DNA of 64,000 nucleotides from Paenibacillus marchantiae (GTDB lineage Bacteria; Bacillota; Bacilli; Paenibacillales; Paenibacillaceae): NCBI RefSeq assembly GCF_028771845.1, contig NZ_CP118270.1, forward strand, positions 5,580,001 to 5,644,000. Reading direction: 5' to 3'. Within the stretch, counting starts at the first letter, position 1; each line of letters begins with the position of its first letter. The notes under the pieces were generated by a model. The model was not told the origin of the DNA. It did not search any database and saw only the letters and a program-made list of their open reading frames with translations. The position numbers were made by a program, and so were the translations under genes. Below are positions 29,417 through 44,440 of the stretch, in pieces.

Positions 29417-30034
29417 TTAGACTGAGGCCGTTTGTCCGAACAGCTTTGCCGCGTGGCGTTGTTCATAAGCCCCTATTTCGTCATCATGTTGAAGCGTGAG
29501 ACCAATATCGTCCAATCCTTGCAACAGGAATTGGCGACGATGCTCATCCAGATCAAAATCAATATGCAGTCCGTATGCATCTGTAATCGTCTTGTTTTCC
29601 AGATTCACATTCATCTCATAGCCTTCATGTGTCGCTGTACGCTGGAATAGATCTTCAACCTGCTCTTCGGAAAGTTTGATCGGCAAGATCCCGTTTTTGA
29701 AACAGTTATTATAGAAGATATCCGCATACGATGGTGCAATTACACAACGGAAACCGTAGTCCATAATGGCCCATGGTGCGTGCTCACGAGAAGATCCACA
29801 ACCAAAGTTGGCGCGTGAGATCAGAATGGATGCCCCTTCGTAGCGAGGTTTATTCATTTCAAAAGAAGGATTGTTGTTACCCTCTTCGTCAAAACGCCAT
29901 TCGTAGAACAAAAATTGTCCAAATCCGGTACGTTCGATCCGTTTCAAAAATTGTTTCGGAATGATTGCATCTGTATCTACATTGACCCGGTCTACCGGTG
30001 CAACGATGCCTTGCAGTGTTTTGAATTCTTCCAT
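29417..30034 (-). CDS. leuD: 3-isopropylmalate dehydratase small subunit
   Basis: 205-residue swivel-domain subunit of isopropylmalate isomerase (second step of leucine synthesis). Recognisable blocks: [15 protein letters not shown] near the N-terminus and [16 protein letters not shown] in the middle. The open frame extends 61 codons upstream into leuC, but MEEFKTLQG at 30034 is the family N-terminus and has GGGAGA upstream. It follows leuC after 31 bp. Confidence 0.95.
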
Positions 30035-30065
30035 ATCATTCGTTCTCCCTTCAATCCGTTCGTTG

Positions 30066-31487
30066 TTAGATAGCTGCTTCCGTTTTGAAATTCCAGTCAC
30101 GTACGTCAACGAAGTGTCCCTTAACCGCTGCTGCAGCCGCCATTGCAGGAGATACGAGGTGAGTACGTCCTCCACGTCCCTGACGCCCTTCAAAGTTACG
30201 GTTGGATGTCGAAGCACAACGTTGTCCGGGTTTCAATACGTCCGGGTTCATTGCCAGACACATACTGCATCCTGCATCACGCCATTCAAATCCAGCCTCA
30301 GTGAACACTTTATCCAGACCTTCTTTTTCCGCCTGAATTTTAACACGTCCCGAGCCTGGTACAACGATCGCTGTAACATTACTGGATACGGTGTGACCTT
30401 TGGCTACCTGTGCAGCAGCACGCAAATCTTCAATCCGTCCATTGGTACATGAACCGATAAATACATAATCAACCGGAATTTCGGAGATTGGTGTTCCAGG
30501 TTCCAAGCCCATATATTCAAGCGCTTTTTCAGCGGCTTTACGTTCGTTTTCTGTTGGCAGTTCAGCCGGGACAGGAACTTTCGAAGAAATGTCGGTTCCC
30601 ATACCTGGGCTAGTACCCCAAGTCACTTGCGGAATCAATGATTCCACATCGATTTCAACCACATGGTCGAATTCAGCACCTTCGTCGGTTACAAGCTCTT
30701 TCCAGGCAGCAACCGCTTCATCAAATTGGACATCGGCAGGTACGTATTCACGTCCACGCAGATATTCAAATGTTGTTTCATCCGGTGCAATCATCCCCGC
30801 TCTTGCTCCACCCTCGATGGACATGTTGCAGACGGTCATGCGCTCTTCCATGCTCAGTTCACGGATCGATTCACCCGTATATTCAATAACATATCCAGTA
30901 GCAAAGTCTGTACCGTATTTCGCGATGACTGCGAGAATCATATCCTTCGCCGTTACACCCGGGTTACGTTTGCCGACAAAACGAACTTCCATCGTTTTGG
31001 CCTTGGCTTGCTGCAAACATTGGGTTGCCATAACATGCTCTACTTCACTCGTTCCGATCCCGAATGCGAGTGCGCCAAATGCACCGTGTGTGGATGTGTG
31101 GCTGTCGCCACATACAATCGTTTTACCTGGATGAGTCAGGCCGAGCTCAGGACCCATAACGTGTACAACACCTTGATCGATAGAATCCAGATCATACAGT
31201 TTTACGCCGAAGTCACGGCAGTTTTGTGAAAGTGTGTCGATTTGTTGTTTGGAGATTGGATCCGTAATGTTAAAACGATCTTTCGTTGGAACGTTGTGAT
31301 CCATTGTTGCGAACGTCAACTCAGGGCGACGAACTTTACGACCACTCAGACGCAGACCTTCAAACGCCTGTGGGGATGTTACTTCATGCACCAGATGCAG
31401 ATCGATATACAAAATGCTTGGTTTGCCTTCTTCCTGATGAATCACGTGGTTTTCCCAAATTTTCTCAAACATCGTTTTTTTACTCAT
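30066..31487 (-). CDS. leuC: 3-isopropylmalate dehydratase large subunit
   Basis: 473-residue aconitase-family subunit holding a [4Fe-4S] cluster. The cluster cysteines are in [12 protein letters not shown] and [11 protein letters not shown]; the substrate-site block [14 protein letters not shown] is also intact. ATG 31487 ([14 protein letters not shown]) is preferred, behind GAGGTG; the open frame begins three codons earlier with GTG. It forms an operon with leuD. The promoter at 31710-31738 carries a Fur box at its start point, unexpected for leucine synthesis. No T-box is visible in the 200-nt leader, which instead contains two simple hairpins (31650-31674 and about 31513-31558). Confidence 0.96.
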
Positions 31488-31679
31488 CATTTTCACCTCA
31501 TCATAAGTTCGGTCCTTGGAAGAGCCTCAGTAGTTTCTTTAAAAGTGAAGCTCTTGAATGACATAAATATATCACCCTGTCCTTCATTGTTCCAAGATAT
31601 AATATCTATAGATGTAATAGGTTTAACCTATAATGAGGGAAAAGCAAATAAACCACTGCTCTATGCAGAGGTTTCAATT

Positions 31680-31698
31680 GATAACAATTATCATTATC
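31680..31698 (-). promoter_or_regulatory. Fur box at the leuC promoter
   Basis: The minus strand reads GATAATGATAATTGTTATC, matching 17 of 19 positions of the classical Fur consensus. It begins about five bases after the predicted leuC transcription start. A divergent weak promoter (TTGATA, 16 bp, TATAAA, 31678-31705) overlaps it on the plus strand. Confidence 0.7.
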
Positions 31699-31709
31699 AT
31701 ATAAATCTT

Positions 31710-31738
31710 ATACTACGTTCCAGCTTCTTCGCTGTCAA
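31710..31738 (-). promoter_or_regulatory. Sigma-A promoter reading toward leuC
   Basis: Minus-strand consensus TTGACA (31738-31733), 17-bp spacer, TAGTAT (31715-31710). Start near 31703. It lies directly after the terminator at 31757-31786, so leuCD has its own transcription unit. A hairpin (AAACC-T-CTGC paired with GCAG-T-GGTTT, 31650-31674) follows the Fur box and is trailed by ATTTGCTTTT, so partial early termination is possible. Confidence 0.65.
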
Positions 31739-39294: not shown

Positions 39295-40221
39295 GTGGAT
39301 ATGGAATTCAGACAACTTCAATATACGCTGCAGATTGCGGCAGAGCGGAATTTCTCCCGGGCAGCTGAGAAGCTGCACATTGCTCAGCCTTCTTTAAGTC
39401 AGCAGCTATCCAAACTTGAAAAGGAACTGGGCGTACTGTTATTTCAGCGTAATACCAGCACCGTGGAACTGACCCATGCAGGGGTGACTTTTGTAGAGCA
39501 GGCTCAGAAAATAATTGATGCAGTCGAGCTGCTAAGACAGGAAATGTCGGACATCTCCCAGCTGCGCAAAGGTAAAGTCGTTGTAGGCAGCATGCCGATC
39601 ACTGGCTCCCACCTGCTTCCGCATGTGCTTCCCGCATTTCAGCAGGCCTATCCCGAGATTGAAGTAACCTTGCTGGAAGACTCCGGGCTGACGCTTGAAA
39701 AGTTGACGGCTAGTGGCAAGGCTGACTTAAGCCTGCTCTCGCTCCCATTGCAGGAGCCAAGCCTATCTTATGTAACGATTGGTGAAGAGCGAATTGACTT
39801 GGCGGTTCCCCCAAATCACCCTCTGGCACGCAGAGGAGATCCGGAGCATCCAGTTCCAGTACGGATGGAAGAGCTTCGAGATGAACCCTTTGTTGTGCTG
39901 AAGAAAGGACAAGGCTTCCGCAAACTTACATTTGATCTGTGTGAGGAAGCTGGGTTTGACCCCAATGTGGTATTTGAGAGTACAAATATTGAGACGGTGC
40001 AGTCACTGGTGGCTACAGGTATGGGGATTACACTGGTTCCGCGCTTTATTGCCCGTGCGCCCCGCAGTGAATTTGTTCCTGTTTACGTACCGCTAGCTGA
40101 GCCAACGCCCAGTCGTACCCTTGTAGTTGCATACCGCCAAGGACGGGTTCTCTCCAAAGCCGCGGAGGCATTCATTCATACTTTTCAACAAACCGTAGCC
40201 GAGCTCTCTCAAGGAGAATAA
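39295..40221 (+). CDS. LysR-family transcriptional regulator
   Basis: 308-residue LysR-type regulator: N-terminal winged helix (LQIAAERNFSRAAEKLHIAQ, then PSLSQQLSKLEKELGV), linker helix, and a two-lobed effector domain (about 95-300). GTG 39295 is seven bases after AAAGGA and is preferred; ATG 39301 is the alternative. A TATAAT at 39264-39269 may be its -10. It is followed by its own terminator. No divergent target gene remains: the neighbour on the other strand is the remnant at 38890-39105, which may have been its former target. Confidence 0.93.
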   Translation: MDMEFRQLQYTLQIAAERNFSRAAEKLHIAQPSLSQQLSKLEKELGVLLFQRNTSTVELTHAGVTFVEQAQKIIDAVELLRQEMSDISQLRKGKVVVGSMPITGSHLLPHVLPAFQQAYPEIEVTLLEDSGLTLEKLTASGKADLSLLSLPLQEPSLSYVTIGEERIDLAVPPNHPLARRGDPEHPVPVRMEELRDEPFVVLKKGQGFRKLTFDLCEEAGFDPNVVFESTNIETVQSLVATGMGITLVPRFIARAPRSEFVPVYVPLAEPTPSRTLVVAYRQGRVLSKAAEAFIHTFQQTVAELSQGE

Positions 40222-41582: not shown

Positions 41583-43229
41583 TCAAACATCTGCAACCTG
41601 TTTTCGTTCTGAACTCCTACATAATAACTCGGGCAACAAAGTTAACAAACGGTTGCTCGTCAGTGCATCGCCCAAATTCCATGTTGTTTCTTCCACTTCG
41701 TACACCTGCCCCTTCTGCACGGCTGTAAGTGCTCGCCAGTTTGGACTCTGCATCAACTTCTCTGTGGCCTGCATTGCAATAACGTCTTCAGGAAGCAAGA
41801 CAAATATATGGTCACCGGCATACTGACGAATCGCTTCTGACGAAATTTCCTTATACGCTCTGCCCGCGGCAAGCGCCTCCTTCACTTTCGTAACGGGTCT
41901 GAACCCCATCGGATGATACAAGAGCGAGGCCAGACCAATATTACCCATGACAAACAATCGTGCACCCCGATGATACGTGAATACGGACGCCGTTTCCCCC
42001 GGTTCAATTGAAGCATGAATCTTCATCCACATCTTTTCCATACGTTGCTGATAGGAGGAGAGCCATTGTCCAGCCTCTGATTGCTTGCCAAACCAGCTTC
42101 CCACCCTGCAAATCCGATCTTCCAGCGTTGCGTGAGAGTTGTATGCCAGTGTGGGTGCAATTCGGGAAAATTGCTCATATTGCTGTTCGTTAGTGCTATC
42201 GAAAATGATCAGGTCTGGTCTCATCCGGACTGCCTCTTCCACATTAACCGGGGCAACCGCATCATATGCCTGATCTCCTAACAGACCAATACCCAGCACT
42301 CGCAGATCTCCACCGGAATCACCATAAAACATAATTCGCTCCGGTCGTGCCGGAATATTCACATCATGACCCAACCAATCCTGAACCAGTGTTTGTTGCT
42401 GAATAGATCGGTCATATTGACGAGGCGATAATCCGGTCATTTGACGAAAACGCCTGCTAAAATAATACTCGTCCTTAAAGCCCACCCGGGTTGCTATATC
42501 CCGAAGCGGTTCATCGGATTTGCGCAGCCAATCCTTAGCATGTTTAATTCGTACATGGTTCACATAATCAAGCGGCTTGTGGCCGGTTAATTGTCTGAAC
42601 AAGGTTGTATATTGCACGGGTCGGATAGCCGCAAGACGTGCCAGTTTCGTTACTGTGATTTCTTCAGCGTAATGGTCTTCTACATACTGAATCGTGCTGT
42701 GTAGTCTGGATTCCATGCTCTGCTCCGTTTTTGGAGAAGTGTACCGGGTGATGATCATCTCCATCCATCTCTGAAACTGTGCATTCAAATGGATATATTC
42801 GGCATCTGTTTGATAATCACGAATGGCATACAATTGCTCCAACAGTCCACTTAACGGGGCATAAGGATAGCCGTTCAATTGATTTCTATGTTCGAATACA
42901 GGGCGCGTATACTGTTCCGGATCTCCTGTCAATACATGAATAACATCAAATGATATCACCATATATTTTAATTCCATTCGGTTTCCATGTTCAATTTGGT
43001 ACCCCTCGCCCGGAGAAAGCGGGTAAACACATCCGGTGGTAAAAGGAAACTGTTCATATCCTATGTATAAGCGACCTTCCCCTTCTTCGCAGATCAAAAA
43101 TGTATGTTTATCGCATGCCACTTCCAGCATCACCTGTTCTGGTTGTTCAATTCGTTGTTCCAGATGATCCAGCCGAAACATGAATGCTGAAAAATACAAC
43201 CCTCTCGCATCGGCATTCAAAGCCTGCAT
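41583..43229 (-). CDS. AraC regulator fused to a siderophore-binding domain (Btr-like)
   Basis: 548-residue protein without signal peptide. Order: N-terminal cupin-like region (1-170), AraC-type double helix-turn-helix (about 180-280; FRQLTGHKPLDYV and IATRVGFKDEYYFSRRFRQM), then a cytoplasmic copy of a periplasmic-binding-protein domain (about 290-535). This is the plan of Bacillus Btr (YbbB), which activates siderophore uptake when its C-terminal domain binds ferric siderophore. The C-terminal domain is paralogous to the lipoprotein next door (shared GETASVFT and LFVM blocks). A Fur box lies in its promoter. GAGGTGAACCACC precedes the ATG. Confidence 0.92.
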   Translation of the reverse strand: MQALNADARGLYFSAFMFRLDHLEQRIEQPEQVMLEVACDKHTFLICEEGEGRLYIGYEQFPFTTGCVYPLSPGEGYQIEHGNRMELKYMVISFDVIHVLTGDPEQYTRPVFEHRNQLNGYPYAPLSGLLEQLYAIRDYQTDAEYIHLNAQFQRWMEMIITRYTSPKTEQSMESRLHSTIQYVEDHYAEEITVTKLARLAAIRPVQYTTLFRQLTGHKPLDYVNHVRIKHAKDWLRKSDEPLRDIATRVGFKDEYYFSRRFRQMTGLSPRQYDRSIQQQTLVQDWLGHDVNIPARPERIMFYGDSGGDLRVLGIGLLGDQAYDAVAPVNVEEAVRMRPDLIIFDSTNEQQYEQFSRIAPTLAYNSHATLEDRICRVGSWFGKQSEAGQWLSSYQQRMEKMWMKIHASIEPGETASVFTYHRGARLFVMGNIGLASLLYHPMGFRPVTKVKEALAAGRAYKEISSEAIRQYAGDHIFVLLPEDVIAMQATEKLMQSPNWRALTAVQKGQVYEVEETTWNLGDALTSNRLLTLLPELLCRSSERKQVADV

Positions 43230-43254
43230 GGTGGTTCACCTCGTTCTTTAAAAT

Positions 43255-43292
43255 GAGAATGATTATCATTAAATCTGTATGAACTGATTATA
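43255..43292 (-). promoter_or_regulatory. Promoter and Fur box of the Btr-like gene
   Basis: The minus strand has TATAAT (43292-43287) with a weak -35, then TTTAATGATAATCATTCTC (43273-43255), matching 16 of 19 Fur-consensus positions, between promoter and start codon. Confidence 0.65.
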
Positions 43293-43332
43293 AGCGAGCT
43301 TTTGTCATTAATCCAGATCTGGCTGTAATCAG

Positions 43333-43374
43333 CAAAAAAAAGAGCTTTCAACGAAATGTTGAAGGCTCTTTTTT
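43333..43374 (-). terminator. Terminator after the siderophore-binding lipoprotein gene
   Basis: Hairpin AGAGC(C/T)TTCAAC with its near-complement, flanked by A and T runs on both sides, so it could work in both directions. It is 59 bp past the stop at 43433. Confidence 0.8.
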
Positions 43375-43432
43375 AGTCGGCATTTTCGTTCTTGTTCCAG
43401 TAAAATATTATGATTTATCAATCCATAAACGA

Positions 43433-44440
43433 CTATTTAATCATCTGTTTCGGTAACTCTTTCAACAGCCATTCTCTTGAAGTTGCATCACTTGAAGCCT
43501 TAACCAGATCAAAGCGATATACTTTTCCTTCTTTTACAGCGGGCAAGTTCTTCCAGATCGGGCTATCCAGCAATTCTTTGGTGGACTGCTTCGCATCATC
43601 CGTTACTGGATTAAGTATAAATACGCGATCACCCGCTATTTCGGGCAGCTTTTCAGTAGAAATCTCTGCAAAGCCCATTCCTTCATCTAATACTTTCTGA
43701 ATTTCCGCGGTTGGCTTCATGCCATCGGCTCCATATAACAACTGTGGCAATCCTGCTCCGGCCATCACAAACAGTCGATTACCAGGATACATAGTGAATA
43801 CCGAAGCTGTTTCCCCTTCTTTCAGCCCATTCTCATGAAGCTGCTTCCACATCTCTTCCGTTGCTTTTTGATGGGCCGTGATCCAAGCTTCCGCTTCCGG
43901 CTTTTTGTTCAACAGATCGCCAAGAGTACGCATGCGGTCGTCCAATGAGGCAAATGAATCAAAGGTAACCGTTGGCGCAACCTTCGAGATTTGATCATAT
44001 TGTGCCTGATCACTATTTGAGAAAATGATCAGATCAGGATTCAAGGTAAGCGCCTTTTCAACACTCATCGGGAAACCCACATCTTCCGCTTGGGCTACCT
44101 GATCATCATATACCGTTCCATCCTGACGAAGAATACCTACAGGTACAACGCCCAGCGCTAGCAAATCCCCTGTAACTTCACCATGATAAATCACGCGTTT
44201 TGGCGTAACCGGAACCTCAACTTCATGGCCTGTCCAGTCCTTGAACATCCGGGTTTCACCCTCACTGTTATCCGCGGATGCCGTCTGTTCCTGCTTGGAC
44301 TGATCCCCATCTGTCTGTGTTTCATTAACCGTTTTGGAATCATCCGTTCCAGATGGAGTCTGATTTCCGCAAGCCAGCAGAAGAATGGACAACCATGTAA
44401 CCGTCAATAATACTGCCGTATTTCGTATACCCTTTTTCAT
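43433..44440 (-). CDS. Siderophore-binding ABC transporter lipoprotein
   Basis: 335-residue substrate-binding protein of the FecB/FhuD/BtuF class. Lipobox LLLACG near residue 24, a Thr/Asp/Glu/Gln-rich linker to about 60, then two lobes joined by a long helix (VEKALTLNPDLIIFSNSDQ; GETASVFTMYPGNRLFVM). It captures ferric siderophore outside the membrane and hands it to an ABC permease. No permease or ATPase is adjacent, so it must use components encoded elsewhere. GGGGGAGAAATAGAA precedes ATG 44440, and its promoter carries a near-consensus Fur box. Confidence 0.92.
   Translation of the reverse strand: MKKGIRNTAVLLTVTWLSILLLACGNQTPSGTDDSKTVNETQTDGDQSKQEQTASADNSEGETRMFKDWTGHEVEVPVTPKRVIYHGEVTGDLLALGVVPVGILRQDGTVYDDQVAQAEDVGFPMSVEKALTLNPDLIIFSNSDQAQYDQISKVAPTVTFDSFASLDDRMRTLGDLLNKKPEAEAWITAHQKATEEMWKQLHENGLKEGETASVFTMYPGNRLFVMAGAGLPQLLYGADGMKPTAEIQKVLDEGMGFAEISTEKLPEIAGDRVFILNPVTDDAKQSTKELLDSPIWKNLPAVKEGKVYRFDLVKASSDATSREWLLKELPKQMIK

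Follow-up and report, generated by a model that had tools for sequence, protein, structure and literature searches.

In Paenibacillus marchantiae, the leuCD operon lies on the minus strand of the window (the whole stretch of 64,000 nucleotides that was analyzed). Read toward leuC, the DNA in front of it contains, in this order, a promoter (P1), a Fur box, a hairpin with a U-rich tail, a 16-nt linker, and the operator of a second promoter (P2). The gene of a LysR-family regulator lies farther away on the opposite strand. The features are as follows.

31710..31738, minus strand: promoter P1, with -35 hexamer TTGACA at 31738-31733, -10 hexamer TAGTAT at 31715-31710, a 17-bp spacer, and a predicted start at ~31703
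31679..31699, minus strand: Fur box TGATAATGATAATTGTTATCA; its core 19-mer occupies 31680-31698, ~+5 to +23 of P1
31650..31674, minus strand: hairpin AAACC-u-CUGC....GCAG-u-GGUUU of the predicted P1 transcript, conserved and weakly terminator-like
31646..31653, minus strand: U-rich tail UUUAUUU, with 0-1 changes per column over most of its length
31633..31648, minus strand: pyrimidine-rich linker of 16 nt, neutral (4.7 changes per column, compared with 4.2 at leuC third positions)
31591..31632, minus strand: LysR-type operator TATAGG-N5-CCTAT...TATAGATATTATATCTTGGA, upstream of P2, with 0.4 changes per column in the subclade
31566..31595, minus strand: P2, the main leuCD promoter, TTGGAA-18-TATATT with an extended -10 (TGA), conserved family-wide
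31490..31509, minus strand: leuC ribosome-binding region AACTTATGATGAGGTGAAAA, the predicted partner of linker plus operator (31643-31625)
30066..31487, minus strand: leuC, large subunit of 3-isopropylmalate dehydratase, an iron-sulfur enzyme (TIGR00170, 796 bits)
29417..30037, minus strand: leuD, small subunit (TIGR00171, 293 bits)
39295..40221, plus strand: LysR-family regulator, ancestrally the divergent neighbour of leuC and now ~8 kb away, 81% identical to the leuC-adjacent regulator in a relative

Tandem promoters upstream of leuC

P1 is oriented toward leuC, and its hexamers give 10 of 12 matches in a promoter scan, in line with the preliminary description of this DNA, which had read TTGACA-17-TAGTAT toward leuC (31738-31710, minus strand). 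The 17/19 Fur site that the same description had placed at about +5 is equally present: the core 19-mer GATAATGATAATTGTTATC (minus strand, 31698-31680) agrees with the consensus GATAATGATAATCATTATC at 17 of 19 positions, and the first nucleotide of the box falls 11 nt past the P1 -10, at ~+5, so that the box overlaps the P1 start region. A chance origin of the box is unlikely, because the 7-1-7 Fur motif (15 bp, at most 2 mismatches) occurs 126 times in the 6.98-Mb genome, both strands summed, and its reversed control only 4 times. These observations support a putative Fur-type operator that covers the start region of P1, a promoter close to consensus and directed at leuCD.

The same Fur motif precedes the gene of a siderophore-uptake lipoprotein (43433-44440). 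The two promoters had been credited with the same geometry; the layout is indeed similar, but at the lipoprotein gene the box begins 7 nt rather than 11 nt past the -10, and the hexamers are different (TTGAGA-17-TATGAT). The region 41583-44440, near the LysR gene, encodes this lipoprotein together with a Btr-like AraC/substrate-binding fusion regulator.

The genome encodes five Fur-family proteins, and the operator might be bound by one of the others (PerR or Zur). The half-site TGATAAT is, however, of the Fur type (TTATAAT being the PerR type). It might also be bound by Fur with no regulatory consequence, as B. subtilis Fur is at many intragenic sites in vivo where no effect on expression was measurable (PMC6212828). 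Against both stand the lipoprotein gene, which carries the same motif, and the 21 invariant columns of the box described below, which imply function; we regard binding by another family member, or binding without effect, as very improbable.

P2 lies ~80 bp beyond the Fur box, toward leuC, and the region between the Fur unit and leuC reads TATAGGTTAAACCTATTACATCTATAGATATTATATCTTGGAACAAT...TGATATATT. The P2 operator consists of a LysR-type interrupted dyad, upstream of the -35, and a second site that abuts the -35. In congeners that have no Fur unit, and likewise in the genera sampled from the family, the same arrangement of operator and P2 precedes leuC; a divergent LysR gene adjoins it in many relatives. 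We considered a riboswitch or T-box for this conserved block and rejected it: the block has no Rfam match, and its recurrence before leuC in the sampled genera, with -35 and -10 unaltered, marks it as the LysR operator and P2. On this comparative evidence, the ancestral promoter of leuCD is P2, together with its LysR operator, and P1 is an addition to it. The heading under which P1 was originally described, as the leuCD promoter, is accordingly not borne out, since the family-wide promoter with its LysR-type operator is P2, downstream.

P2 resembles the promoters of LysR-regulated biosynthetic operons in its TATAG-N7-CTAT type site, in the further site directly against the -35, and in a LysR gene that was ancestrally divergent; it differs in that the regulator has no named NCBIfam equivalog (none scored above cut-off). 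The LysR regulator and its family-wide operator thus form what is apparently an undescribed regulator of the leucine pathway, separated here by ~8 kb of inserted genes. Isopropylmalate as its ligand would be no more than a guess.

In many of the genera sampled, leuC and the LysR gene are divergent neighbours. Among the 47 genomes with the Fur unit, it adjoins leuC in 24 and is non-adjacent in 23, this genome included. Parsimony places about 7 separations of the LysR gene from leuC, and in each of them the Fur unit remained by leuC. This bears on whether the box serves leuCD at all, or acts instead on the divergent LysR regulator or on a transcript of the plus strand. A plus-strand hexamer pair does overlap the box, and in those 24 genomes the LysR gene adjoins leuC divergently. 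In the other 23, however, P1 and the box are unchanged beside leuC although the regulator is elsewhere, and the plus-strand -10 varies among genomes. A divergent transcript from this overlapping promoter had been listed earlier as an alternative. It has lost support, as its -10 is not conserved and the regulator has moved away; we rejected the box as a site for a plus-strand transcript, and give almost no weight to a divergent target of either kind.

Conservation and distribution of the Fur unit

We examined 75 congeneric genomes, each with a single copy of leuC, and defined as a subclade the 48 genomes whose LeuC is at least 94% identical. The exact 19-mer is present in 47 of these 48, at 211-218 nt before leuC codon 2. 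Changes per column were counted by parsimony on the leuC tree for the 47 genomes, which form one clade, so that counts of genomes are not independent observations. Conservation in relatives, on which the reading of the box had been made to depend beforehand, was thereby checked: the extended Fur box shows 0 changes in 21 columns, the P1 -35 shows 0 in 6 columns, and the -10 shows 0 in 5 of 6 columns, while leuC third positions average 4.2 changes per column and only 12% of their columns have none. On this comparison, the 21 invariant columns imply a function for the box. An invariant box is also found at the siderophore-uptake lipoprotein gene (30 orthologs), equal to the leuC box; extra invariance of the leuC box as a sign of an RNA seed was therefore rejected.

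The spacing between the Fur box and the LysR operator is 46-47 nt in all unit-bearing genomes. No Fur box was found upstream of leuC in the 22 other congeners examined or in the sampled other genera, and a search of this genome for a further copy of the unit returned only Fur-box matches. By this distribution, the Fur unit is a later addition, specific to the subclade.

The one exception among the 48 genomes, G064, was first a candidate for loss of the Fur site, which we rejected: the whole unit is present, with the box intact, ~37 kb from leuC. It was moved by an integrative element of ~37 kb, with a tyrosine integrase, an ImmA-like protein and an Xre repressor, inserted in the LysR operator. 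Both junctions of the element have CTATTACATCTATAGATAT in common (G033, where the unit is in place, served as the comparison genome), and the LysR regulator and Fur unit lie on one flank of the element, with leuCD on the other. Read from these junctions, G064 is a recent displacement of the unit. The element, observed at L160 2700-6300 and L161 about 2300-2420 of G064, has the leuCD LysR operator as its attachment site.

The hairpin and the predicted RNA from P1

The hairpin that the preliminary description had named at 31650-31674 is present, and its folding energy lies well below that of shuffled sequences (mean z = -3.6). It is more stable on the minus (P1) strand than on the plus strand in 33 of 36 unique sequences, which argues that it is conserved as RNA of the P1 strand, because greater stability on that strand is expected if G-U pairs count. 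The stem shows compensating changes (CUGU/ACAG) and replacements of the U-U mismatch by A-U or G-U, and it has mostly 0-4 changes per column, compared with 6-12 in the loop. The hairpin and tail look like the end of a small transcription unit, to judge from their sequence. The d'Aubenton score is nevertheless only ~0-10 in most genomes (about 3 for the hairpin here), compared with 68 for a control terminator just upstream; because this score is low, read-through is likely. Both a short RNA and a read-through RNA are thus the predicted products of P1. Conservation of the hairpin as RNA of the P1 strand favors the earlier suggestion of a short regulatory RNA that ends there.

Such a short RNA could have a function of its own: P1, hairpin and tail may constitute an autonomous Fur-repressed gene for a trans-acting RNA of ~60 nt, whose position before leuCD would be incidental. 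The conserved block does stop at the U-rich tail, with the neutral linker next, the hairpin is conserved on the RNA strand, and the unit in G064 has kept its box 37 kb from leuC. But a single integrative element caused that displacement, which does not have to reflect retention for function, the terminator is weak, and no Rfam family fits (the locus gave no relevant Rfam match). Moreover, there is no conserved unpaired seed: loop and linker vary freely, and outside the stem and tail the only invariant segment is the Fur box, which is already explained by DNA binding. We therefore consider a trans-acting RNA unlikely.

The read-through RNA would carry the linker and the operator into the leuCD leader. 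In predicted foldings to codon 10, the leuC Shine-Dalgarno (SD) sequence is unpaired with a probability of ~0.22-0.23 in the P1-started leader and 0.91 in the P2-started leader, in all 47 genomes. Equally long hypothetical leaders from relatives that do not have the unit bury the SD similarly (unpaired 0.28 and 0.29), and for that reason we rejected SD burial alone as evidence of repression. A more specific feature is a predicted helix between UUUUCCCUCAUUAUAGGUU, from linker plus operator, and AACUUAUGAUGAGGUGAAAA, which forms in 44 of the 47 unit-bearing genomes, in 0 of 22 congeners that have no unit, and in 4 of 24 genomes of other genera. The duplex averages -19.1 kcal/mol (z -2.9) in unit-bearing genomes and -9.0 (z +0.5) in the congeners lacking the unit; in the other genera z is -0.3. 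The helix is lost in L050 and L052 and nearly lost in L041.

Substitutions in this helix tend to keep the pairing: C-to-T and A-to-G (wobble) changes predominate at a number of positions in the arm, and in L055/L056 both partners of one pair have been replaced. The linker arm evolves at about the neutral rate. Preservation of pairing is significant when substitutions are placed independently, and a tree-preserving permutation gives P = 0.075; with the tree kept, we did not accept the pairing as proven selection. Selection for pairing of linker and operator with the SD is thus suggestive in this folding model, not established.

Predicted direction of the iron response

Bacteria usually reduce their iron-sulfur enzymes in iron starvation through small RNAs repressed by Fur. 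In B. subtilis, the iron-sparing RNA FsrA has leuCD among its listed targets and is reported to lower it (PMC8464778). We rejected an FsrA homolog here, since the FsrA covariance model (RF02273) finds no match in this genome and detects the B. subtilis control. With FsrA the leuCD unit has in common a link between leuCD and an RNA that is Fur-repressed, here putatively so, and a ribosome-binding site that is predicted to be occluded; FsrA, however, is an 84-nt trans RNA with C-rich loops, whereas the RNA here lies in cis, directly upstream of leuCD, and has no conserved C-rich seed.

The anatomy of the locus suggests the following sequence of events. When iron is plentiful, Fur would occupy the P1 start region and leuCD would be transcribed from P2 alone. 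Iron starvation would switch P1 on. Most of its RNA would probably end at or near the hairpin, giving a product of ~60 nt, and a fraction would continue through the P2 operator into leuCD. In the resulting 5'-extended mRNA, linker plus operator could pair with the leuC SD, and transcription across the operator could disturb P2. The net effect would most likely be a drop in LeuCD during iron scarcity, a form of iron sparing in cis. Of the readings considered, we tentatively favor this one, in which a Fur-repressed unit upstream of P2 acts in cis and most likely lowers LeuCD in iron scarcity, over a promoter that raises LeuCD and over a trans-acting RNA. The more detailed proposal, that derepressed P1 lowers LeuCD through SD occlusion in the extended mRNA and interference with P2, and needs no trans-acting small RNA, is possible yet doubtful. 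Counting against a cis-lowering unit is the hairpin itself: a terminator-like hairpin is unneeded if read-through is the point.

The opposite direction had been drawn originally from Fur repression, namely that an iron-sulfur enzyme would be more expressed when iron is scarce. That conclusion does not follow, because P1 RNA must pass the terminator-like hairpin, and the RNA that does so is predicted to pair with the SD. It would hold only if P1 RNA is well translated, and the predicted anatomy argues otherwise. The idea can still be framed as compensation: P1 would be an ordinary second leuCD promoter whose activity in iron starvation raises LeuCD and offsets enzyme that has lost its cluster, with the hairpin tuning read-through or stabilizing the mRNA. 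P1 faces leuCD and stays by P2 in 47 of 47 genomes despite the separations of the LysR gene, the distance from box to operator is constant, and the weakness of the terminator would let transcripts through. A plain promoter would not, however, be expected to carry a conserved terminator-like hairpin and U-rich tail, the SD of its read-through RNA is predicted to be occluded, and the response reported in Bacillus has the opposite sign (PMC8464778). Compensation is, in our judgment, somewhat unlikely. The cis-lowering reading would agree with Bacillus, because FsrA is reported to lower leuCD there.

With the Bacillus promoters that Fur represses through 7-1-7 boxes, such as those of siderophore genes, P1 shares a GATAAT-type inverted repeat over the start of a sigma-A-like promoter. 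It differs from them in its target, an iron-sulfur biosynthetic operon, and in having a hairpin at the end of the unit, ahead of the promoter that belongs to the operon. For a Fur promoter, both target and layout are unusual. In the literature searched, Fur control of leuCD is not reported for Paenibacillus; the B. subtilis Fur ChIP-seq paper (PMC6212828) does not name leuC in its main text, and a C. difficile Fur paper mentions leucine fermentation and not leuCD. A parallel for the cis-lowering arrangement is LUTI, in which a budding yeast kinetochore gene is repressed through a longer, poorly translated mRNA isoform (PMC5655150; PMC5948300). Both have an upstream regulated promoter in tandem with the main one (the P1-P2 order is present here); the other shared features, which at leuCD are predictions, are a 5'-extended isoform with poor translation and transcription that crosses the main promoter. 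At leuCD, by comparison, the long isoform and its effect are predicted from sequence, any occlusion would come from RNA pairing, and the hairpin may be where most P1 RNA ends.

In one clade, then, Fur appears to reach an iron-sulfur operon directly, by a tandem promoter and hairpin RNA added to a conserved LysR-controlled promoter. If P1 lowers LeuCD, this would be a protein-and-cis-RNA route to iron sparing, in which the repressor of the uptake genes saves iron at this operon with no need of a small RNA in trans; if P1 raises LeuCD, it would be one of the rare cases in which iron scarcity directly induces an iron-sulfur enzyme. The two readings predict opposite signs of the change in LeuCD, and either outcome would be informative.

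Two minor observations concern the leader downstream of P2. In several relatives, the open frame of leuC continues upstream (31472-31560; frames of 499-520 aa, MSFKSF...). A small upstream ORF was rejected, since its start is lost in L040 and L050 and mid-region indels are not in threes; the upstream extension is unconserved and probably untranslated. The P2 leader (31500-31560) has a 5' hairpin, AAGAGC...GCTCTT, with an invariant stem and a loop of varying length (28-34 nt between the stem motifs); relatives have other stems in its place, and it is perhaps a stabilizer of the mRNA.
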